This document shows, in pieces, positions 33,127 through 58,512 of a DNA stretch of 64,000 nt (the first letter of the stretch is position 1; every line of letters starts with the position of its first letter). Source of the stretch: Sphingobacteriaceae bacterium. Its GTDB lineage: Bacteria > Bacteroidota > Bacteroidia > Sphingobacteriales > Sphingobacteriaceae. The position numbers and the translations under genes are program-made. Where the stretch lies: the NCBI GenBank assembly GCA_029266635.1, contig JAQSWM010000008.1, forward strand, positions 1 to 64,000. Direction: 5' to 3'. Below the pieces are notes generated by a model. That model worked only from the letters and a program-made list of their open reading frames with translations. It did no database searches and was not told the origin of the DNA.

Positions 33127-33378
33127 ATGTATTCTGAAATTAATGCTTTTTGAGTGAAGAGGGCGAGCTGAAGATTGTTCTAAAGCAGTAGCCGGGAGAA
33201 TTTTCGCAATCTTCATTCAGGTATTCCGATATAATTGGAGGTTACGGAAGTAAAATTATGTTAAAATTGACATTGATGGTGTATCTTTTCTGATATAAAA
33301 TCAGCTGGCAGCGCTTGAAATGCAGCTTTGCGATTGAGTGGAACACAGAAACTGCTATATTGTGGCACTAATTTTAGG
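33127..33378. promoter_or_regulatory. Divergent intergenic region between two glycan operons
   Basis: About 250 AT-rich bases separate the divergent sulfatase and GDPD operons, so promoters in both directions are expected. On the plus strand a TTG (33334-33336), 19 bases, then TATATTGTG (33356-33364) partly match the TTTG/TAnnTTTG pattern; the second element is imperfect. No clear minus-strand box was found. No regulator gene is adjacent. Confidence 0.35.
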
Positions 33379-34149
33379 ATGGTGCATAAGAACCTCAAAC
33401 CTGCTTTTTACTTCTTGTTTTTCTTTCTGGGATGCTCTGCTGCAAGAGTGCAAACGACTCATTATACGGTGCAAAATGCACACTCTCATAACGATTATGT
33501 AAACCCACATCCCTTTGTCCTTGCTTTTGAGCAGGGTTTCGGCTCCATTGAGGCTGATATATTCCTGCGCAATAACGAGCTTCTGGTAGCGCACAACAAA
33601 AAGGAGATCAAACCTGAAAACACGCTGCGCAAGCTCTACCTCGATCCACTGGCCGCAGCTCTTAAAGCGAATCCATCGCGGAAGCTGAACCTGCTCATCG
33701 ACCTCAAAGACAATTACAAAGAAGTGCTGCCGGTACTTGTTGAACAATTAAGAGAATTGGAGCCTCTCTGCTCATCCGGAAACAAAAAAGGCAATCTCAC
33801 CATCCTGATAAGCGGCTCACGCCCCTCGCCTGCCGAATACAATAACTATCCCGCGTTCATCTTTTTTGATGATGACCTTGCTCTTCCGCACACTCCGGAA
33901 GAATGGAAACGCGTTGGATTGGTAAGCCTGAACTTTACAAAGTATTCCAAATGGGAAGGTAAATCAGAGTTGCCTGCGGGCGATAAAGCCGCATTGATAA
34001 AAGTAATTTCCGAAACCCACAGCAAAGGGAAGCCTATACGTTTTTGGGCTGCGCCCGATACAGAAAAAGCCTGGAAAGCACAGATGGATATTCATGCCGA
34101 CTATATCGGCACCGATAAGATAAAAGAGTTAGCAGATTTCCTCAACTAA
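33379..34149 (+). CDS. GDPD/PI-PLC-like phosphodiesterase lipoprotein
   Basis: A 256-residue exported phosphodiesterase-like protein. The ATG at 33379 was chosen because it begins a hydrophobic leader ending FFLGC (Cys-19), a lipobox-like site; the frame is open 17 codons further upstream. The conserved PLC-like barrel features are visible: His-35/His-37 (NAHSHNDY), Glu-58 and Asp-60 (SIEADIFL) and His-72 (LVAHNK). The family includes glycerophosphodiester phosphodiesterases and PI-PLC-like enzymes that split phosphodiesters. Its stop lies 4 bases before the next gene. The substrate is unknown, and loss of activity in this subgroup cannot be excluded. Confidence 0.75.
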   Translation: MVHKNLKPAFYFLFFFLGCSAARVQTTHYTVQNAHSHNDYVNPHPFVLAFEQGFGSIEADIFLRNNELLVAHNKKEIKPENTLRKLYLDPLAAALKANPSRKLNLLIDLKDNYKEVLPVLVEQLRELEPLCSSGNKKGNLTILISGSRPSPAEYNNYPAFIFFDDDLALPHTPEEWKRVGLVSLNFTKYSKWEGKSELPAGDKAALIKVISETHSKGKPIRFWAAPDTEKAWKAQMDIHADYIGTDKIKELADFLN

Positions 34150-34153
34150 ACAT

Positions 34154-34975
34154 ATGAACAAATACATTTCGTTTTCATTGCTGCTGGCGGCAACAGCTTT
34201 TCTTTCCTGTTCAAAAAAATTTACCCAGAACACACAGGCAGCAAAGTCTCGTACTGCCAACAGCATTCTTGTGATGACTTATAACATCCATCACTGCAAC
34301 CCACCTTCAAAGGAAGGCGTGATTGATGTTGAAGCGGTGGCAAATGTGATCAGGGAACAGAACCCAGATATTGTTGCCCTTCAGGAAGTGGATGTAAACA
34401 CTGACCGCTCGAAGGTGAATGAGGCGCAGCAATTGGCCGATAAAACCGGCATGAAATATTTCTTCGCCAAAGCTATCGATCATCAGAATGGCGAATATGG
34501 TGTAGCGATACTTTCAAAATACAACATTGAAGAAGGGACTGTACATAAACTCCCCATGGAACCCGGCAGCAAACGTGAACAACGTGTTCTCGCAACTGCA
34601 AAAATCACGTTAAAGGATGGCACTTCCATCCGCTTTGGCTCTACGCACCTTGATGCGGGCAGCAATCCAGTCGACCGCGAGTACCAGATCAAAGAGATCA
34701 ACCGGATCGCATCGGCAGAGACACTTCCCTTTATAATCGCCGGCGACTTCAACGCAGTTACAGGAAGCACGATCATCAATCAATTGGATCAGAACTTCCA
34801 GCGCAGCTGCACGGTTTGCGGGCCAACCATTCCTTCCGATAAGCCAAATAAGACAATCGATTTTATCGCGTTTAAGCCCAAGACCGGATTCAGAGCACTT
34901 TCAACCGCAGTAATCCAGGCACCGTATCCATCAGACCATTTACCTGTAACCGCCATTCTGGAATACACAAAATAA
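34154..34975 (+). CDS. Endonuclease/exonuclease/phosphatase-fold lipoprotein
   Basis: A 273-residue protein of the EEP (DNase I-like) metal-dependent phosphohydrolase fold. The leader ends FLSC (Cys-19), so the protein is probably lipid-anchored outside the cytoplasm. Motifs run in the family order: MTYNIHH (41-47), LQEVD (76-80, Glu-78 as metal ligand), STHLD, AGDFNA and SDHLPV (catalytic His near the end). The fold serves nucleases, neutral sphingomyelinases and inositol polyphosphate phosphatases. The membrane location and GDPD/GH89 neighbours make a lipid or glycolipid head group more likely than DNA, which is inference. Confidence 0.85.
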   Translation: MNKYISFSLLLAATAFLSCSKKFTQNTQAAKSRTANSILVMTYNIHHCNPPSKEGVIDVEAVANVIREQNPDIVALQEVDVNTDRSKVNEAQQLADKTGMKYFFAKAIDHQNGEYGVAILSKYNIEEGTVHKLPMEPGSKREQRVLATAKITLKDGTSIRFGSTHLDAGSNPVDREYQIKEINRIASAETLPFIIAGDFNAVTGSTIINQLDQNFQRSCTVCGPTIPSDKPNKTIDFIAFKPKTGFRALSTAVIQAPYPSDHLPVTAILEYTK

Positions 34976-34979
34976 GACA

Positions 34980-37193
34980 ATGAAGCTTTTCTTACATCGA
35001 TTTATACTGCTGCTGTTCCTTTTCCCACTAGCCGTTTCGGCTCAGGCCCAAGCAAACCAACAGGATAAACAAGCCGCGTACGCCCTTATCAAACGTGTTA
35101 TGAAAGGGAGTGCAAGCAAGTTTGAGGTCAATTATATCCCAAAGTCCGACGGGAAAGACGTTTTTGGGCTTGAAAGCAGCAAAGGCAAAATCATCCTCAG
35201 CGGAAACAACAACGTTTCTGTAGCAAGCGCTCTGAACTATTACCTGCGCAACTACGCACATTGCCTTATCTCCTGGAACGGCTCAAACCTCAAGCTGCCA
35301 AACCCATTACCGGAAGTTAAAGAAAAGGTGGTTAAGCAGTCGCCGTATCAGTTCCGGTATTACCTTAATTATTGCACATTCAACTATTCCATGAGCTGGT
35401 GGGATTGGAACAGATGGCAATGGGAAATCGACTTCATGGCGATGAATGGCATCAACATGCCGCTTGCCATAACAGGGCAAAACTCTGTTTGGAGTCGTGT
35501 GTACAAGAAAATGGGCTTTACCGACAAGGATCTGGAGAGCTTCTTCTCGGGACCCGCCTACTTCAACTGGTTCTTTATGGGAAACCTGGATGGCTGGGGC
35601 GGCCCGCTGCCCAAGAGCCACATGATGGCGCATGAGGAATTGCAGAAAAAGATTCTGGAGCGTGAGCGTTCGTTGGGAATGGATCCTATCCTTCCAGCCT
35701 TCACTGGTCACGTGCCGCCAAACTTTAAAGACAAATTCCCGCATGCCAAACTAAAGAAAACACATTGGTCAACCTTTCGGGATGTCTATATCCTGGATCC
35801 TGATGATCCGATGTTCATGAAAATCGGGAAATCATTTATAGACGAAGAAGTAAAAACCTACGGCACCAACCATTTCTACACCGCCGACACGTTCAACGAA
35901 AACACTCCGCCTACCAATGACTCCACCTACCTGAGCGACGTGAGCAAAAAGGTGTATCAGTCTATGGCTGCCGCCGATCCGAAAGCTACCTGGATTATGC
36001 AGGGATGGCTGTTCTACTACACCGCCAAATTCTGGCAGCCTACGCAGATCAAAGCTTTGCTGAACGCTGTGCCGGATGATAAAATGATCATCTTAGATCT
36101 ATGGTCGGAGAACCACCCGGTTTGGCAGCGCACCGATGCATACTACGGCAAACCGTGGATCTGGAACATGCTGCACAACTTCGGTGGTAATATCAGCATG
36201 TATGGCAGGATGGATGAAGTAGCATCGGGACCGATCAATGCTTTGCACGATCCAAAATCGGGCAAAATGGCTGGCATCGGGCTTACGCCGGAAGCCATTG
36301 AGCAAAACCCCGTTATGTACCAGTTAATGCTGGATAACGTATGGACAAACAAGCCCATCAATGTAGATACATGGCTGAAAGACTATGCTTTTCAGCGATA
36401 TGGAAAGCGGAACGCATCAGCAGACAAAGCCTGGGATATTTTACATAAAACGGTTTACACCGGAGGCATTCTCCCCGGTGGACCGGAATCTATTATCACC
36501 GCACGCCCAACATTCGGCACAGCGGCTAAAGGCACACGCATCAAGAAGTTCTACAAACCTGAAAACCTAGTACCGGCCTGGGATAACCTGATCGCGGCTT
36601 CTGCCGACTTAAAAACAGAAGGCTTCTGCTACGATCTGGTTGACCTCACCCGACAGGTGTTGGTAAATTATGCTGATACATTGCAGCGGCAGTTCGCCCA
36701 GGCATATGAGAAGAAAGATCTGGCAGGCTTTCGCAGGATCAGTGCTGCATTTATTGGCGTACTGGATGATACCGATAAGCTTCTCGCCACCCGCGAAGAC
36801 TTCCTCTTAGGCAAATGGCTGAACGCTGCTAAGAAGGTCGGCAACACACCTCAGGAAAAAGCCCTCTACGAAAAGAACGCCCGCAACCTCATCACCCTCT
36901 GGGGAGGCAAAGACGCCACGTTGGCTGAATATTCTTGCAGACAGTGGAGCGGGATGATCTCAGGATTTTACAAACCACGCTGGCAGCAATTCTTCAGGTA
37001 TGCAGATCAGCAGCTTTCTGCCGGCAAAGAGATAAACCAGAAAGAATTTGAAGAAAAGATTGTAGATTGGGAGTGGAATTGGATAAACAGCTCCGACATC
37101 TACAACGACAAGCCCGTGGGCGACGAAATAGAAATTGCCAACAGGCTCTACAAGAAATACATACCTCTAATACGAAAAGAATATCATCAGTAA
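34980..37193 (+). CDS. GH89 alpha-N-acetylglucosaminidase
   Basis: A 737-residue secreted homologue of NAGLU, which removes terminal alpha-linked GlcNAc. The signal peptide ends near AQAQA (21-25). The N-terminal domain (30-120) precedes the barrel, which has the family signature WWDWNRWQWEIDFMAMNGIN (140-159), then TADTFNEN with Glu-307 and LDLWSENHP with Glu-377, the likely catalytic pair, followed by the MLHNFGGN loop. A helical C-terminal domain completes the usual length. It starts 4 bases after the EEP gene. Natural substrates of the family include heparan sulfate and mucin-type alpha-GlcNAc caps. Confidence 0.95.
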   Translation: MKLFLHRFILLLFLFPLAVSAQAQANQQDKQAAYALIKRVMKGSASKFEVNYIPKSDGKDVFGLESSKGKIILSGNNNVSVASALNYYLRNYAHCLISWNGSNLKLPNPLPEVKEKVVKQSPYQFRYYLNYCTFNYSMSWWDWNRWQWEIDFMAMNGINMPLAITGQNSVWSRVYKKMGFTDKDLESFFSGPAYFNWFFMGNLDGWGGPLPKSHMMAHEELQKKILERERSLGMDPILPAFTGHVPPNFKDKFPHAKLKKTHWSTFRDVYILDPDDPMFMKIGKSFIDEEVKTYGTNHFYTADTFNENTPPTNDSTYLSDVSKKVYQSMAAADPKATWIMQGWLFYYTAKFWQPTQIKALLNAVPDDKMIILDLWSENHPVWQRTDAYYGKPWIWNMLHNFGGNISMYGRMDEVASGPINALHDPKSGKMAGIGLTPEAIEQNPVMYQLMLDNVWTNKPINVDTWLKDYAFQRYGKRNASADKAWDILHKTVYTGGILPGGPESIITARPTFGTAAKGTRIKKFYKPENLVPAWDNLIAASADLKTEGFCYDLVDLTRQVLVNYADTLQRQFAQAYEKKDLAGFRRISAAFIGVLDDTDKLLATREDFLLGKWLNAAKKVGNTPQEKALYEKNARNLITLWGGKDATLAEYSCRQWSGMISGFYKPRWQQFFRYADQQLSAGKEINQKEFEEKIVDWEWNWINSSDIYNDKPVGDEIEIANRLYKKYIPLIRKEYHQ

Positions 37194-37206
37194 CCACTAA
37201 CCAGAA

Positions 37207-38604
37207 ATGAACCGTAGAAATTTAATTAAATCGTTAGGGATCAGCTTAGGTGCCACAATCATCAGCACCGAAGCCTTGGGCAGGATAGCCAAAGACACTT
37301 ACAGCTATGCTATCCCCAAAAACCCTTTGCACAAACCATTCGAAAAAGCAGTAACAGCTATCACCTGCGGTGCAGGAAATCGTGGCAATGTGTATGGCGG
37401 TTTTGCAACCAAATTCCCCGGCGAGCTCGATATCATCGGAGTTGCAGAGCCTATCCCCTTCCGCAATGAGCGTTACGCCAAAACCCACAACATAGAACAG
37501 AATAATCGCTTCAATACCTGGGAAGATGTATTCAAACGTCCCAAGTTTGCCGACGCAGTAATCATCTCTATGCCCGATAATCTGCACTATGCACCCTGCA
37601 TGAAAGCGTTGGAGATGGGGTATGATGTGTTGCTGGAAAAACCTATTGCCCCTACCGAAAAAGAGTGCCGCGATATCCTCGCCATGGCGAAGAAAACCGG
37701 GCGCATTGTAGGTGTTTGCCACGTGCTTCGTTATGCTCCTTACTTCGTGAAGATGAAGGAACTGATTGCACAAGGAGCTATAGGCAGGGTAATGAGCGTG
37801 CAACATCTCGAGCCAATTGAGCATACGCATATGGCGCACTCGTACGTCCGCGGCAACTGGCACAACTCAAAAGAGACAACTCCTATCCTGCTGGCCAAAT
37901 CATGCCACGACCTTGACATCATTAAGTGGGTGATCAATAAACCGAGCAAGGAAATTATTGCCATGGGCGATCTTACCTGGTTTAAGCGGGAGAATGCGCC
38001 CGAGGGCAGCACCAACAGGTGTACCGAAGGATGCAAAGTGGAGCGTGAGTGCCCGTACTCTGCGATAAAAGAATATGTAGAGAGAGGCTCCCGCAACAAA
38101 GTCCTCGACATTCCTGATGACATGAAGGATAAAGACGAACGGAAGAACTTCATCATAAACAAACTAAACACAACTAACTACGGGCGCTGCGTGTACCGCA
38201 TGGACAACGATCAGCCCGACCATTATATCACAAGCATACGTTTTGCCGATGCCGTAACTGCCAACTTCTCCATGGAGGCTTTCGCCGGATATGCTGGAAG
38301 ACGAACACGCATTTTCGGTTCAATGGGCGATATTGTGGGCGATATGGATGAGTTGGTTGTTACCGATTTTCGCACACGCAAGAGTGTAACCCTCAAGCCA
38401 AAAGCAGAAGATGTGGAAGGCTATACAAATGCCGGCCACGGCGGCGGCGACTATAACTTAGCCCACGACTTTGTACAGGCTGTTGCGCATCAGGATCCTA
38501 AAATGCTTACTTCCACGATCGATGAATCTATAGAAAGCCACCTGATGGGCTTTATGGCGGAAAAGAGCCGGAAGACAAAAAGAGTAGAAGCGATTAAGGT
38601 GTAG
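37207..38604 (+). CDS. Gfo/Idh/MocA-family oxidoreductase, Tat-type leader
   Basis: A 465-residue NAD(P)-binding oxidoreductase. The N-terminus (MNRRNLIKSLGISLGA) is a Tat-like signal, which fits a cofactor-loaded exported enzyme. The Rossmann domain begins about residue 45 (ITCGAGNRGNVYGG) and carries the family EKP motif (LLEKPIAPTEKE). A cysteine-bearing segment (CTEGCKVERECPYSA, then GRCVYRMDND) is characteristic of one subgroup. Members oxidise sugars or inositol, and some (GH109 and 3-keto pathways) cleave glycosides through redox chemistry. It is the last gene of the operon, 13 bases after GH89. Confidence 0.88.
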   Translation: MNRRNLIKSLGISLGATIISTEALGRIAKDTYSYAIPKNPLHKPFEKAVTAITCGAGNRGNVYGGFATKFPGELDIIGVAEPIPFRNERYAKTHNIEQNNRFNTWEDVFKRPKFADAVIISMPDNLHYAPCMKALEMGYDVLLEKPIAPTEKECRDILAMAKKTGRIVGVCHVLRYAPYFVKMKELIAQGAIGRVMSVQHLEPIEHTHMAHSYVRGNWHNSKETTPILLAKSCHDLDIIKWVINKPSKEIIAMGDLTWFKRENAPEGSTNRCTEGCKVERECPYSAIKEYVERGSRNKVLDIPDDMKDKDERKNFIINKLNTTNYGRCVYRMDNDQPDHYITSIRFADAVTANFSMEAFAGYAGRRTRIFGSMGDIVGDMDELVVTDFRTRKSVTLKPKAEDVEGYTNAGHGGGDYNLAHDFVQAVAHQDPKMLTSTIDESIESHLMGFMAEKSRKTKRVEAIKV

Positions 38605-38889: not shown

Positions 38890-40122
38890 TTAGTTCACCA
38901 GCATATACACACAATCTCGGGGTTTGACCTGTACACTGATGGTATTGCTAAACTGCCCTAGGTCTTTTTTGTCATAAACATCCCGTACACTTACTTTCCT
39001 GTTGAAGCCCAGATCAGAAAGATTTACAGCAACAGTTTGGGTTTTCGCGTGGTCTCTGTTCAGGAACAGCACCGCTGCTTTTCCACCTTTTAACTTCTTA
39101 GTCCAGATCTCAGTATTTCCTATAACCTTCAGGCGTGTGCCTTGTTCGGTCGGGTCCTGGTTGATGGCAATCGCCTCCTTATTCATCACGATGTCTTTTT
39201 CATATTGAGGCATGTTCCTTGGATCGTCGCCGAGGAAGAGCGGTGCCGACATAATTCCCCAAAGCGCAAAATACATTTTCTGTTCGCTTGGTGTAAGGCC
39301 CTGGTCACCGGTAACCAACATCTCCGGATCATTCCAGTAACCCGGTCCCGCATACTGAGCAGATTTATTATTTTCATTGGCTATCCACATTACCGTTTTG
39401 AAGTTCCCCTTCGGAGCTACTGCAACCGAATCAAACGCGGCTTTTCCTACGTTCACTCTTGCCATGATATCAGGAGTTGTCCTCGACATGTTTCCCACCT
39501 CAGGATTCCAATCGCGGAACTGGTAGGCGCTTATGCTTAGCACAATATTCTTGCCGCTCTTTTTAAGGATGTCAGTCCAGCGGAAATAAGTTTCCTTAAG
39601 CAAATCTTCGTTCCAGCCTGGCGCATATTTACATTTATCAAGTTTGATGAAATCGAGCCCCCAGTCAATAAACTGCTGTATTTGCACCTGCTCGTGATTG
39701 AACCCGCCCACAGGGTCGCCACCGCAATCCTGAGTTCCCGGAACAGTGTGCAAACCAAACTTAAAGCCCTTGGAATGGGCATAATCAGCCAGCGCTTTTA
39801 TCCCGTGAGGGAATTTCTCAGGATGGGCAGCCAACTCTCCGTTGGGACCGAGCTTGGTATCCCGCCATCCGCCATCTACAACCACATAGTTGTAACCTGC
39901 ATCCCGCAATCCGTTGGCTGCCATTGCATCAATCACCTCACGCACCACGGCCTCATTCACATCTTTTTTGCCGAACCAGTTCCAACTATTCCAGCCCATC
40001 GGCGGTGTTGGAGCAATTCCCTGCAGCTTACGGGTGCCCTGCTTCTGGGCAATACAGCCTGTGTTCAGCAAGAATGCGATTGAAAATGAGTACAGAAGTG
40101 CTTTGAAAAGACGATTTTTCAT
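38890..40122 (-). CDS. GH27 alpha-galactosidase
   Basis: A 410-residue exported GH27 enzyme. The leader ends around LLNTGCIA (19-25), so Sec export or a loose lipobox at Cys-23 are both possible. The barrel starts with PTPPMGWNSWNWFG (38-51); the nucleophile is Asp-162 (FIKLDKCKY) and the acid/base is Asp-265 (GYWNDPEML). The C-terminal beta domain spans about 325-410. It removes terminal alpha-galactose, or related residues such as beta-L-arabinopyranose, from glycans. It stands alone on the minus strand with its own upstream gap, facing the GH89 operon across a terminator. Confidence 0.93.
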   Translation of the reverse strand: MKNRLFKALLYSFSIAFLLNTGCIAQKQGTRKLQGIAPTPPMGWNSWNWFGKKDVNEAVVREVIDAMAANGLRDAGYNYVVVDGGWRDTKLGPNGELAAHPEKFPHGIKALADYAHSKGFKFGLHTVPGTQDCGGDPVGGFNHEQVQIQQFIDWGLDFIKLDKCKYAPGWNEDLLKETYFRWTDILKKSGKNIVLSISAYQFRDWNPEVGNMSRTTPDIMARVNVGKAAFDSVAVAPKGNFKTVMWIANENNKSAQYAGPGYWNDPEMLVTGDQGLTPSEQKMYFALWGIMSAPLFLGDDPRNMPQYEKDIVMNKEAIAINQDPTEQGTRLKVIGNTEIWTKKLKGGKAAVLFLNRDHAKTQTVAVNLSDLGFNRKVSVRDVYDKKDLGQFSNTISVQVKPRDCVYMLVN

Positions 40123-41368: not shown

Positions 41369-41911
41369 TTACTCCTTCACACTCTTAATCCTTCCCCGCA
41401 ACTCGTCGCTGTCAAAGCGATCGTAATACGTGACCGTAGTATTGCCGACAGACTTCAATTTACCTTTTAACTCGTCCCAGTCGAAGCGATCGTAATAGCT
41501 AAGCGGTGTACTGCCGATCGATTTGAGTTTGCCTTTCAATTCATCCCAACCAAACCTATCGTTATAGGTAAGGGTGGTGTTCCCAACCGACTTGAGTTTG
41601 CCACGCACTTCATCCCAGCTAAATTGATCGTAATAAGTGAGCGTAATGCCTCCAACCGACTTCAGTTTCCCATTGAGTTCAGAGCTATCAAACTCGTCAT
41701 AGTAACTAACCTGTCCACGTTCGTTTAGGGGCGAGTACTGAAGCAGCCTCCCATTGAGGCTGACAACAAACAGTACATCATCGCAGATAAATTCCACAGC
41801 ACGCACTGATGTGCCACGGTCGTTAAGCACCGGTAGTGGCTGATCCAGATGTTGAGCCATCACAGTAATCGAAGAAGTGAACAGCAGGGCTAAGATGACC
41901 TTAAATCTCAT
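41369..41911 (-). CDS. Exported protein made of 23-residue tandem repeats
   Basis: A 180-residue exported protein of unknown function with a Sec leader (ending VMAQ, 17-20). Residues 66-180 consist of a degenerate unit, four full 23-residue repeats (81-103, 104-126, 127-149, 150-172) and a partial last one. Each unit follows the pattern GKLKSVG-x-TTLTYYDRF-x-WDELK, with strong conservation of Gly, Lys, Tyr-Asp and Phe. The pattern suggests repeated beta-hairpins forming a small solenoid or propeller-like surface. It converges with the prenyl synthase 16 bases away and lies 124 bases downstream of the PHP gene. Confidence 0.75.
   Translation of the reverse strand: MRFKVILALLFTSSITVMAQHLDQPLPVLNDRGTSVRAVEFICDDVLFVVSLNGRLLQYSPLNERGQVSYYDEFDSSELNGKLKSVGGITLTYYDQFSWDEVRGKLKSVGNTTLTYNDRFGWDELKGKLKSIGSTPLSYYDRFDWDELKGKLKSVGNTTVTYYDRFDSDELRGRIKSVKE
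41372..41716 (-). repeat. 69-base tandem repeats within a coding sequence
   Basis: Coding tandem array with a 69-base period: four full copies plus partial copies at both ends. The copies differ by substitutions only, keeping frame, so they are protein repeats under selection and not satellite DNA or a CRISPR array. Confidence 0.8.
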
Positions 41912-42035: not shown

Positions 42036-43229
42036 CTATTCTTTCGAATCCTTCACCGCGATCTCCAGTTCCGTTTCCAGAGTCTTTTCGGGTGCCACGA
42101 GTATGTTCTCAACCGTCATCCTCAGGCTTATCTTAGCTGGATACTCCCAAACCGGATCCAGTGTGAATGTGGTAGTGCTGTTAGCCTTCAGCGTAATGCG
42201 CCCGTTTGGAACATCATCCAACTCATAATTTGCACGGCATATTACATCGTAAGGAATATCCGACTTATTCTCTATCCGGACTTCAAGCTGCGGCGACTTT
42301 CTCTTCTGCTTTTTGATTGCTGTTGCCACGAGCGACGCTTTAAAAAACGCCTCCGCTTCCGGCTTCCGGGCGATGATGACATTCTCGGTATAAACAGCCG
42401 TGCGCTTTGCAAGCAGCGCCTCCTTTACTGCAGCCTCCGATTTATCCTTCGCAAAGACAAGCGTCATCGGGCGGTGGTATGTTGCAGAGGGTGGTGGTAT
42501 GTCAGCATGTGCATCTGTACCCGAAGTCATTGTCAGGTTGTATTTTTCGGCCATTCTGTGAGCAAACACATTGTAATGTTGGCCGTTCACCACCTCCACC
42601 CCGCCCAGAATTCCTTTTGCCAGCAGTTCCTGATGAAAAGGCGTAAACAACTCATGGCTCTTTCCATCCCACCACGAGTAGTTTGGGTGATTGTAGATCA
42701 CAAAGCCGCCCTGCTTCTGAACCTCCAGGAACGGAGCCATCAGTTCTTCTTTAGTAGGATTTTCTTTCATAATGAACACCTTCTTGCTCGATGCAGTATA
42801 GCCGTACGGAAGCTTGTCGGCATTCTGAAGAAACAGTGCATTATTATGATAAGGCGGCACCCGCGGCGATATTTCTGCGCCTCTAATTACAAGCACATGA
42901 GTGTCCTCGGCAGCACTCACCCCCAGTTGGAAGGCGTGCTCCCGGTCGCGTTTAATTTCATCAGGATACTTTTCCATGTCGCTGTGTTCTGTAACCGAAA
43001 TTACATCCAGCCCATCGCGTTCAGCTTCATCAACACGCACCTTTGGCATCACATGTCCGTCTGAATAGGCCGTGTGCATATGGAAGTCGCATTTCAGCGT
43101 AACATATCCCGGAATATCCGGCACTTTTACTTTTGGGTTTCGGGGAATGTTCTGGGAAAAGGCCGTGAAACTTGTAGCCAGGATAATAAAGGAAAAGAGC
43201 AAAGTACGCTTGTGCGTGATCTGTATCAT
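42036..43229 (-). CDS. Secreted PHP-domain metallophosphoesterase-like protein
   Basis: A 397-residue exported PHP-domain protein. The leader ends TAFSQ (22-26). PHP metal-binding motifs are clear: CDFHMHTAYSDG (48-58, His-50/His-52), SVTEHSD (78-84), a later GAEIS, YNHPNYSWW and TSGTDAHAD. PHP proteins hydrolyse phosphate esters with three metal ions. From about 315 a beta-sandwich C-terminal domain follows (LEVRIENKSDIPYDV). An exported PHP protein with this tail recurs in Bacteroidota, with no known substrate to my knowledge. It has its own promoter-like sequence immediately upstream. Confidence 0.82.
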   Translation of the reverse strand: MIQITHKRTLLFSFIILATSFTAFSQNIPRNPKVKVPDIPGYVTLKCDFHMHTAYSDGHVMPKVRVDEAERDGLDVISVTEHSDMEKYPDEIKRDREHAFQLGVSAAEDTHVLVIRGAEISPRVPPYHNNALFLQNADKLPYGYTASSKKVFIMKENPTKEELMAPFLEVQKQGGFVIYNHPNYSWWDGKSHELFTPFHQELLAKGILGGVEVVNGQHYNVFAHRMAEKYNLTMTSGTDAHADIPPPSATYHRPMTLVFAKDKSEAAVKEALLAKRTAVYTENVIIARKPEAEAFFKASLVATAIKKQKRKSPQLEVRIENKSDIPYDVICRANYELDDVPNGRITLKANSTTTFTLDPVWEYPAKISLRMTVENILVAPEKTLETELEIAVKDSKE

Positions 43230-55723: not shown

Positions 55724-57064
55724 CTAAGCAGCCAAAAATAACGACAGCACATACACACATCCCATCACGGTAAGGCCCATCAAAATACTTGCTACGGTGT
55801 ACACTCTGAGCATGGTTTTCATGTCTATCTCAGAAAACTTGGAGATTACCCAGAAGTAAGCGTCGTTGGCATGCGAGATCATCATTGAACCTGCTCCCAT
55901 TGCCAATACGCACAACAGCTTACCGTTCTCGTTATCCAGGCCCAAAGCGGGCAGCAAAGGCTGTATGATTGAGGCAGCGGTGATAATAGCCACCGTAGAT
56001 GAGCCGAGCGATGTCTTCAGGATTGAGGTAAGCAGAAAGGGAAACAAAATCCCGAGGCTTGCCAGCGGAAAAGAGCTATCAAAGTGATCTCCCAACTTAG
56101 TGGCTTGCAGCACAGCGCCAAAAGCGCCTCCTGCACCGATGATTACCAATATCCCACCTGCTTTCTCAACAGCATCATGCAATAATTTGCTGATACGTTC
56201 GCTGTTCCAGCCACGCCCGCAGTTAAAAGCCAGCAGCACACCAATTGCCAGTGCCATCACCGGATCGCCCAATGCCGAAAGCACTTTTTGCCAGCCGTTC
56301 AGGTTTGTAGCATCTGTTTCAATGAGAAGGAACGATTTGATCGCAATCAACGCAATCGGAACAATAATGGGCAGGAAGGCGTTGAGCGCTGATGGCCTGA
56401 ACGACTGATCAATTTCCTCGTGAATTGCAGAATCTTCCTCATGCACGTATTTTCTTCCTGCATAACTTGCCCACAGATAGCCCACCAACATTGCGGGTAT
56501 AGCAATGAGGGCACCAATCAGGATCAGCCTGCCAAACTCCACTCCTATTAGTCCTGCGGCTGCCGTTGCGCCGGGATGCGGTGGAATCAAACAATGCACC
56601 GAATACAATCCTGCTGCAAGGGAAACCGACATAGTCACAATTGGAACCCCGGTGCGCTTTGCCAAGGATTTGTTTAAGCCGCTCAGCACGATATATCCGG
56701 AGTCGCAGAAGATGGGAAGCCCTACTATGAAACCGGTTACGCCCATGGCCAAAGCAGAAAAGCGAGGAGGAACCTTGCTGAGAATGTAGTTGGCCATCAC
56801 AGCTGTGCTGCCGGTATGTTCGAGGATCACGCCTAATGTTGTGCCCAGCACAATGATGATCCCCAGCGACTTCATGATACCACCGAAGCCCTCCTTGACA
56901 GAAGAAATGACTTCCGGAACCGAAAGCTGCACCCCCAGGCCAACCACAAAACAGGCAAGGATCAATGCGAAAAAAGCATGGATGCGAAACCTGGTTGTGA
57001 GCAGTACGATGAAGGCAATGCCAATTACCAGAACGATGAGGATGTGCGCAAGGGAGCTTGTCAT
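55724..57064 (-). CDS. GntP-family gluconate/hydroxy-acid:H+ symporter
   Basis: A 446-residue integral membrane protein with about 12-14 hydrophobic spans. The GntP signature areas are present (GFGGIMKSLGIIIVLGT, PIFCDSGYIVLSG, PPHPGATAAAG). The family imports gluconate and related sugar acids with protons. It follows the glycerate kinase gene by 15 bases, so glycerate or a similar hydroxy acid is a sensible substrate, by inference. Confidence 0.93.
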   Translation of the reverse strand: MTSSLAHILIVLVIGIAFIVLLTTRFRIHAFFALILACFVVGLGVQLSVPEVISSVKEGFGGIMKSLGIIIVLGTTLGVILEHTGSTAVMANYILSKVPPRFSALAMGVTGFIVGLPIFCDSGYIVLSGLNKSLAKRTGVPIVTMSVSLAAGLYSVHCLIPPHPGATAAAGLIGVEFGRLILIGALIAIPAMLVGYLWASYAGRKYVHEEDSAIHEEIDQSFRPSALNAFLPIIVPIALIAIKSFLLIETDATNLNGWQKVLSALGDPVMALAIGVLLAFNCGRGWNSERISKLLHDAVEKAGGILVIIGAGGAFGAVLQATKLGDHFDSSFPLASLGILFPFLLTSILKTSLGSSTVAIITAASIIQPLLPALGLDNENGKLLCVLAMGAGSMMISHANDAYFWVISKFSEIDMKTMLRVYTVASILMGLTVMGCVYVLSLFLAA

Positions 57065-57079
57065 GCAACGAATTTAAAA

Positions 57080-58381
57080 CTATTCGGCGTCAATTAATGC
57101 AAGCATAATGTCCATTACGTTGGTTTGGGTTGCACCGGTTTTGATCAGCCCGCCTGCCTGTGAGAAGAAGTTATACGAATCGTTGTTTTCGAGATAAGCA
57201 TTGGCATTAAGCCCGAGTGCAGCAGCCTTCTTCATGATCTCTGCATTCACAAAAGCTCCCGCAGCATCTGTCGGGCCATCGGTCCCGTCTGTTCCTGCTG
57301 ATAAAAGAGTTATGTTCTGGTTTTCTCCTAATTCTATTCCTGCGGCAAGTGCCAGCTCCATGCTTCTTCCGCCTAAGCCATTGCCCTTAATGGTTACCGT
57401 GGCTTCGCCTCCCCACAAAAGGCAAACAGGTGAAGTGCTTTTAACTTCTTTTGCCTTTTGCACGATCATCTTTCCCAGGTCTTTCGCTTCGCCGTTAAGG
57501 GTGCTGCTGATTATGTGAGATTCGTAACCTAGCTCTCTGGCTTTTGCTGCGGCGGCTTCCAAAGCAATCTGGTTGCTTCCGATGAGGAAGTTGTGTGTGC
57601 TGGAGAAGCTGGTATCGCCTTCTTTGGGCGTGTCGGGTATTTTGCCTGCGCATCCATCCGCAATGTGCTTTGCTATAGCCTGTGGAACCTGCCTGCTGAG
57701 ATTGTACTTCTCCAAAACTTTATAAGCGTCACTAAAAGTACTCTTATCGTGAGCTGTTGGCCCGGAGCCGATCACATCTAAATCATCGCCTACCACATCC
57801 GATAAGATGAGTGAGAACAGCCTTGCAGGATGAATGTGCCGGGCAAGCTGTCCGCCTTTGATGTTCGACAGGTGCTTCCTGACGGTGTTCATCTCGTGTA
57901 TATCTGCTCCCGATTTCAGTAGAAGATCGTAAGTGTGTTGAACTTCCGTTAAACTCGAACCCTCAGGAAAATCAGCCAAAAGCGCCGAAGCACCGCCTGA
58001 GAGAAGGAAGATGACTATATCGTGGTCTGTTAAGCCCGCCGTAAGTTTCAGGATTTCTTCACTGGCGAGAACACTATTGCCGTCGGGGATTGGGTGGGCA
58101 GCCTCAATAAGCCTGATCCTGTTCAGAGGCAATCCATGATCATACTTCGTAACCACAATCCCACCGCTGATCCGATCACCCACAATCTTTTCCAAGGTTT
58201 GAGCCATCAATGCCGAGGCCTTTCCTGCCCCAATTACAAATATTCGCTGGTTAGGCTGCAGCTTGACTGATTGCTCGTCTATTTGCAGATGCGGCGCTTG
58301 CCAGGTGACATGCTTGTGAATAAGCGTGGAAGGTTTCACCGCTTCTACGGCATGAAGGAAGATTTGAATGGCGTGCGACAT
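57080..58381 (-). CDS. Glycerate 2-kinase (GckA/TtuD, MOFRL family)
   Basis: A 433-residue glycerate kinase, producing 2-phosphoglycerate from glycerate and ATP for entry into glycolysis. The ATG at 58381 was preferred over one 75 bases upstream, whose extension lacks family features. Motifs visible are VIGAGKASALMAQTLE, LLSGGASALL and the MOFRL-domain GGRSMELALAAG and AGTDGTDGPTDAAGA. The GntP transporter lies 15 bases downstream, so the two form an uptake-and-use operon. Confidence 0.92.
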   Translation of the reverse strand: MSHAIQIFLHAVEAVKPSTLIHKHVTWQAPHLQIDEQSVKLQPNQRIFVIGAGKASALMAQTLEKIVGDRISGGIVVTKYDHGLPLNRIRLIEAAHPIPDGNSVLASEEILKLTAGLTDHDIVIFLLSGGASALLADFPEGSSLTEVQHTYDLLLKSGADIHEMNTVRKHLSNIKGGQLARHIHPARLFSLILSDVVGDDLDVIGSGPTAHDKSTFSDAYKVLEKYNLSRQVPQAIAKHIADGCAGKIPDTPKEGDTSFSSTHNFLIGSNQIALEAAAAKARELGYESHIISSTLNGEAKDLGKMIVQKAKEVKSTSPVCLLWGGEATVTIKGNGLGGRSMELALAAGIELGENQNITLLSAGTDGTDGPTDAAGAFVNAEIMKKAAALGLNANAYLENNDSYNFFSQAGGLIKTGATQTNVMDIMLALIDAE

Positions 58382-58512
58382 ACGATTTAGCAGGCGTTGA
58401 GATTGACGAAGATAAAATTTAGAGGTTAAAGATTTGTTTCCTCCGTGGGAAACCAACTGACAGGCAAACGCTTTATCTTTATCGCAGGCCCAGATGATTT
58501 CCGTTGGGTTTT

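Follow-up and report, generated by a model that had tools for sequence, protein, structure and literature searches.

The question raised by the DNA analysed here, a stretch of 64,000 nucleotides from a contig of a Sphingobacteriaceae bacterium (hereafter the window), is on which substrate the products of one of its operons act. The open reading frame (ORF) map confirmed the layout given in an earlier note on this DNA, with four ORFs on the plus strand at 33379-38604 that are separated by gaps of 4, 4 and 13 nt: gene 1 (33379-34149, +; 256 aa), encoding a PLC/GDPD-type phosphodiesterase of the HSHNDY family; gene 2 (34154-34975, +; 273 aa), encoding an EEP-fold phosphoesterase (PF03372); gene 3 (34980-37193, +; 737 aa), encoding a GH89 alpha-N-acetylglucosaminidase (PF05089/12971/12972); and gene 4 (37207-38604, +; 465 aa), encoding a Gfo/Idh/MocA oxidoreductase (PF01408) with a cysteine motif and predicted Tat-like (twin-arginine) export. 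The first two products are probable lipoproteins. The note had suggested that the four enzymes dismantle an amino-sugar-inositol-phosphate head group, such as that of the glycosyl inositol phosphoceramides (GIPCs). With moderate confidence, we read genes 2-4 instead as an exported cassette for a glycerol-phosphate-containing glycan with alpha-linked N-acetylglucosamine (GlcNAc), the likeliest candidate being a polymer of the teichoic acid type from Gram-positive bacteria. Two parts of the earlier suggestion are retained: a phosphodiesterase, the GH89 and the Gfo do belong together, and alpha-GlcNAc and a phosphodiester are very probably linked in the target.

The genes that belong together were identified in a survey of 121 genomes of the family, in which every gene was searched separately and pairs within 10 kb were counted (loci and genomes are cited below by our L and G numbers). 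EEP and GH89 genes were found together in 11 places (0.27 expected), EEP and Gfo genes in 8 (0.15 expected) and GH89 and Gfo genes in 3 (0.08 expected), where the expectations are rough, as genomes were treated as independent; for the first two pairs this amounts to an enrichment of about 40-50 times over chance. The order EEP-GH89-Gfo is repeated in at least four other genomes (G047, L113; G080, L114; Mucilaginibacter aquatilis, L140; Pontibacter harenae, L151), Cesiribacter has the order GH89-GH89-Gfo, and the EEP-GH89 pair is present in two further families of the class (G228, G152). Gene 1 occurs near EEP or GH89 genes in the window genome only, and near Gfo there and in G024. Because gene 1 lacks linkage to EEP or GH89 elsewhere, a unit of all four genes, as envisaged before, was rejected, and we consider genes 2, 3 and 4 to be the conserved core and gene 1 a local addition, an optional partner.

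The neighbourhoods of this core in related genomes point to its substrate. The cassette is often located 3' of SusC-SusD or SusC-SusD-DUF5689 (L113-L118, L140), and genes for glycerol phosphate use recur around its members and their relatives: GlpD-GlpT-SusC-SusD-DUF5689-Gfo-PLD-metallophosphoesterase-GDPD-GDSL-GlpR in Pontibacter burrus (L145), a similar locus with additional GH36 and GH20 genes in Rufibacter (L138 and L142, the latter with GH89 too), SusC-SusD-PLD-metallophosphoesterase-GDPD-GDSL-GH89-GlpR-GlpD in L130, GH89-GlpR-GlpD-GlpT-SusC in L252 and GlpF-GlpK-GlpD-GlpR-Gfo-GlpT-GDPD in L124 and L125. In L113 Gfo is followed by GDPD, in L122 two GDPD-like genes flank Gfo, and a glucosamine-6-phosphate isomerase-like gene is also among the partners in the relatives' loci. 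GlpT (TIGR00712) and GlpK (TIGR01311) score above the curated equivalog cut-offs. The Glp-type and cassette partners were not seen in 56 loci of more distant Gfo proteins, except for rare GH20, GH97, SusD, sulfatase and GH2 genes, a control that is weak because these loci were taken from other taxa. Because the close relatives adjoin genes for the uptake and catabolism of glycerol phosphate, a glycerol-phosphate polymer with alpha-GlcNAc is likelier than a plant sphingolipid.

The window genome itself encodes these functions on another contig, GlpD, GlpT and GDPD being absent beside the cassette. The locus (L253; contig C1, ~506-517 kb) reads SusC-SusD-DUF5689-GlpD-GDPD-GlpT-GDSL, then GlpF-GlpK, and GlpR. 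The SusD of L253 shares 56-59% identity with those encoded directly upstream of EEP-GH89 in L115, L116 and L117, and a single SusD group unites these three loci with the Glp loci (L130, L138, L142, L145, L256 and L253 itself), where the loci of the Glp-type SusDs encode GlpD, GDPD, GlpT, GDSL esterase, PLD and metallophosphoesterase. Since SusD proteins bind the imported ligand, their shared group is the strongest argument that the cassette and the Glp module serve one substrate class.

The glycosidase itself is also informative. In gene 3 the NAGLU domain set is complete (494, 293 and 91 bits, all above the Pfam cut-offs), the closest solved relative is human NAGLU (4xwh, 560 bits), and E307 and E438 align with the catalytic Glu pair E316/E446 of that enzyme; gene 3 is thus predicted to encode a full-length GH89 with its catalytic Glu pair in place. 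The same domain set and Glu pair are found in Bt3590, CpGH89 and human NAGLU, which act on heparosan or mucin-type glycans, whereas the phosphodiester-linked clade is known from sequence. This clade emerged from a tree of 39 GH89 proteins that were labelled when encoded near EEP, Gfo, GDPD, Glp, PLD, metallophosphoesterase or glycerate genes: the tree accounts for the label with 3 changes, where shuffled labels take 12.6 on average and 0 of 500 shuffles gave so few (the second GH89 of the window genome, L251, was labelled on a weak GlpT-like match), and the window GH89 is placed within wholly labelled groups. That second GH89 (G000:C7, 9466-12447, -) adjoins a gene for a 3-keto-disaccharide hydrolase (PF06439), which hints at an oxidative route of glycoside cleavage that Gfo could serve.

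The heparosan activity is of interest because of what lies upstream of the operon. On the opposite strand the window contains a large sulfatase/rhamnosidase cluster (3-33216, -) with seven sulfatases, three GH106-type genes, GH78, GH97, GH20 and GH2 (the last above the GalB model cut-off), and the nearest, SGSH_C-positive sulfatase is 162 nt away. The operon might then serve this divergent locus or the degradation of glycosaminoglycans: its GH89 would attack a glycan that is sulfated or resembles heparosan, as Bt3590 of B. thetaiotaomicron attacks heparosan oligosaccharides (PMC8225759), and the EEP would be an accessory phosphatase. We consider this unlikely: none of the 35 close-Gfo loci yielded a sulfatase, and the EEP-GH89 loci that were mapped, searched with these references too, yielded none either, and the sulfatase neighbourhood is therefore particular to the window genome.

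Genes 2 and 4 are among those on which the GIPC proposal was built. Gene 2 belongs to the EEP superfamily (PF03372, 77.8 bits), its catalytic residues N44, E78, D198, N200, D236, D261 and H262 are invariant, and a lipobox-like FLSC, visible in the sequence, suggests a lipoprotein. In the search with the EEP profile, 4ruw, 3teb and nocturnin come before sphingomyelinase C, which the profile also matches, and the 50 best structural matches of the EEP model include no sphingomyelinase. By profile and model the protein is nearest to general EEPs, nocturnin and BT3783, so that the likeness to sphingomyelinases on which the earlier note had drawn is not singled out. Assigning a substrate from the fold was rejected for genes 1 and 2 alike, as the structure search resolves the superfamily level alone.

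Gene 4 starts with the twin-arginine sequence MNRRNLIK, of which MNRR is invariant among 11 aligned orthologues (66-82% identical), and export by the Tat system is predicted on this basis; the cysteine motif comprises C272, C276, C282 and C328. A specific kinship with inositol dehydrogenases is not supported: the IolG model (TIGR04380) gives 78 bits with a cut-off of 355, a UDP-GlcNAc 3-dehydrogenase model scores slightly higher, and naming the protein an inositol dehydrogenase is not safe on such scores. Gene 4 shares the Gfo/Idh/MocA fold with enzymes of the GH109/GH188 type (BT_2158/BT_2159), which act on glycosides as NAD-dependent glycosidases or as glycoside 3-dehydrogenases, but it scores far under the cut-offs of all named subfamilies, including the BT_2158, BT_2159 and IolG models. 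A search of the Protein Data Bank (PDB) with the Gfo alignment gave no match at E 1e-20. The gene 4 product would perhaps oxidise a polyol, or else a GlcNAc or hexose residue at its C3. A Gfo that is 71% identical was also encountered in the betaproteobacterium Undibacterium amnicola (L148, 9992-11389), by horizontal transfer or contamination.

That the operon dismantles plant or algal GIPCs (GlcNAc-GlcA-inositol-P-ceramide) is very improbable in the light of these data. The gene families fit on paper, sphingomyelinase C is among the EEPs that the profile matches, and the PL8 lyases of two related loci may point to a uronic acid; however, a ceramidase (PF04734) was not matched in the window genome (G000) and, over the ten genomes searched, was matched in just two, IolE (TIGR04379) exceeds its cut-off in none of these ten, G000 included, the 50 best structural matches of the EEP lack sphingomyelinases, gene 1 is not conserved with the other three, and the linked genes are GlpT, GlpD, GlpK, GlpF, GlpR and GDPD rather than ceramide or inositol genes.

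The family assignments made earlier from the letters were supported by Pfam for the EEP, the GH89 and the Tat-type Gfo; for gene 1, support came from its AlphaFold (AF2) model, the GDPD profile remaining sub-threshold (PF13653 GDPD_2, 23.1 bits, cut-off 27; no match to PF03009). The model (pLDDT 91.6) is a barrel of the PLC/GDPD type and resembles the GDPD structures 3no3 and 1t8q (Foldseek, TM 0.54-0.57). The conserved motif HSHNDY (H37, N38, D39) is accompanied by E58, D60 and H72, of which E58, D60 and H72 are invariant together with H37, and with its modelled TIM barrel, catalytic His pair and metal-binding E-x-D the protein is placed in the GDPD/PLC-like superfamily. A lipobox-like FLGC, also visible in the sequence, marks it as a putative lipoprotein. 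The best structural match is the spike of phage phi812 (9eul, TM 0.53), which we take at most as a hint; a literature search found no paper on this spike. In one relative (L131, 9256-11145) a domain of the gene 1 type is fused to an alkaline phosphatase, and many other relatives have open frames of 600-660 aa and are possibly such fusions too.

This fusion bears on a reading in which the cassette serves mainly for phosphate scavenging, as a phosphate utilisation system (PUS) in which GH89 and Gfo play a helping part and there is no single target polymer. In the parts of the Flavobacterium study that we consulted, PUS loci (PusCD) likewise group a SusCD-type transporter with phosphodiesterases and phosphatases, are induced by low phosphate and include a PhoA with a PF13653 domain that resembles the fusion of gene 1 type; GH89, Gfo and Glp genes are not described in those parts, and the window cassette, unlike the PUS, is not beside SusCD (PMC8115612). 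We regard phosphate scavenging as such as distinctly unlikely, since GlpD, GlpK and the glucosamine-6-phosphate isomerase-like partners imply carbon use as well.

Several observations weigh against a target built with glycerol phosphate. No SusC/SusD genes surround the window operon, which places it outside a polysaccharide utilisation locus (PUL) or PUS; with the Glp genes elsewhere as well, the cooperation of two loci that we infer is drawn from relatives. The EEP-Gfo pairs of L119 and L120 lie beside arginine genes and lack GH89, many Gfo copies are surrounded by unrelated genes, and the GH89 and EEP families both have broad substrates. Moreover, GntP and a glycerate kinase occur in the EEP-GH89 loci L117, L129 and L235 (the kinase alone in L118), a PL8 lyase in L140 and L233, and GH92 in L233; these partners show that the substrate is not plain polyglycerophosphate in every host.

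The target may be another phosphodiester-linked glycan, such as one with GlcNAc-1-phosphate side groups, a phosphomannan or a eukaryotic glycan derived from glycosylphosphatidylinositol (GPI) or phosphatidylinositol (PI), which the EEP would cut and from which GH89 or NAGPA would remove GlcNAc. NAGPA proteins form a family of alpha-GlcNAc phosphodiester glycosidases; two of their genes flank Gfo in L128 and one follows a nearby SusCD in L171, an observation that also counts for the favoured reading. The GH92 mannosidase that adjoins EEP-GH89 in L233 would fit as well, as would the structural relative BT3783, a mannosyl-6-phosphatase, and the Pfam PGAP2IP (GPI-remodelling, Cwh43-type) C-terminal domain that is matched by 28 of 29 EEP family members, a point in favour of the GPI-like glycans that the earlier note also named. 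Yet the partners most often repeated are glycerol-3-phosphate genes, GH92 is confined to a few loci, as is NAGPA, and no inositol breakdown enzyme exceeds its cut-off, so that we hold this alternative to be possible, though doubtful.

Two further known systems are comparable. BT3783 (PDB 4c1r), of a yeast-mannan PUL, is likewise an EEP that Bacteroidota use to degrade a glycan, and its fold is similar; it differs in its identity of 18%, its mannan target and its lack of a GH89 or Gfo partner. GlpQ and PhoD of Bacillus subtilis were reportedly characterised as teichoic acid hydrolases by Myers and colleagues in 2016 (cited in PMC11188070). Their fold types, GDPD and metallophosphoesterase, also occur in the related Glp loci; in B. 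subtilis they recycle the cell's own wall, whereas here putative enzymes with predicted export are encoded beside an importer in Gram-negative bacteria.

Elsewhere in the window three minus-strand genes are possible accessories: a putative PHP-DUF5001 phosphoesterase (42036-43229, -), a relative of which (52%) immediately precedes Gfo in Rufibacter ruber (L138); a GntP-family permease (55724-57064, -), 62-65% identical to the GntPs adjoining EEP-GH89 in L117 and L129; and, paired with it, a MOFRL/DUF4147 glycerate 2-kinase-like gene (57080-58456, -). A GH27 alpha-galactosidase (38890-40122, -) is convergent with the operon and has a 31% relative in the EEP-GH89 locus L115. A tandem repeat (41399-41602; 69 bp, 3 copies) lies inside a short secreted-looking protein (41369-41911). 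The divergent intergenic region (33217-33378 on the ORF map), which separates the sulfatase locus (-) from the operon (+), scored no better than shuffled sequence in the promoter scan; the terminator scan also did no better than shuffles, and Rfam gave no match. Because position 1 of the window is the start of the contig, the sulfatase/rhamnosidase cluster may extend past the assembly.

On the favoured teichoic-acid-type target, GH89 would take off alpha-GlcNAc, and the EEP plus GDPDs, the optional gene 1 among them, would cut the phosphodiesters; a SusC/SusD complex with DUF5689, in the window genome that of L253 on contig C1, would bind and import the fragments, GlpT would import glycerol-3-phosphate and GlpD would pass it to central metabolism. 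More tentatively, Bacteroidota may possess loci dedicated to feeding on the teichoic acids of Gram-positive bacteria, composed of SusCD-DUF5689 importers, EEP, GDPD, PLD and metallophosphoesterase enzymes, GH89 or NAGPA, an oxidative step by an exported Gfo, and GlpT/GlpD. The cassette is akin to PUL and PUS systems (PMC8115612), and its gene combination was not found described; our literature searches retrieved neither a dedicated teichoic acid uptake locus in Bacteroidota nor, in Bacteroides, any described locus by which teichoic acids or GIPCs are used. If true, this would raise the question of the role of the exported oxidoreductase. As phosphate polymers, teichoic acids abound in every habitat of Gram-positive bacteria, and the cassette would name both a food source and a phosphorus source, for which the GH89 clade, the EEP, the Gfo and the SusD group together would serve as a genome marker.

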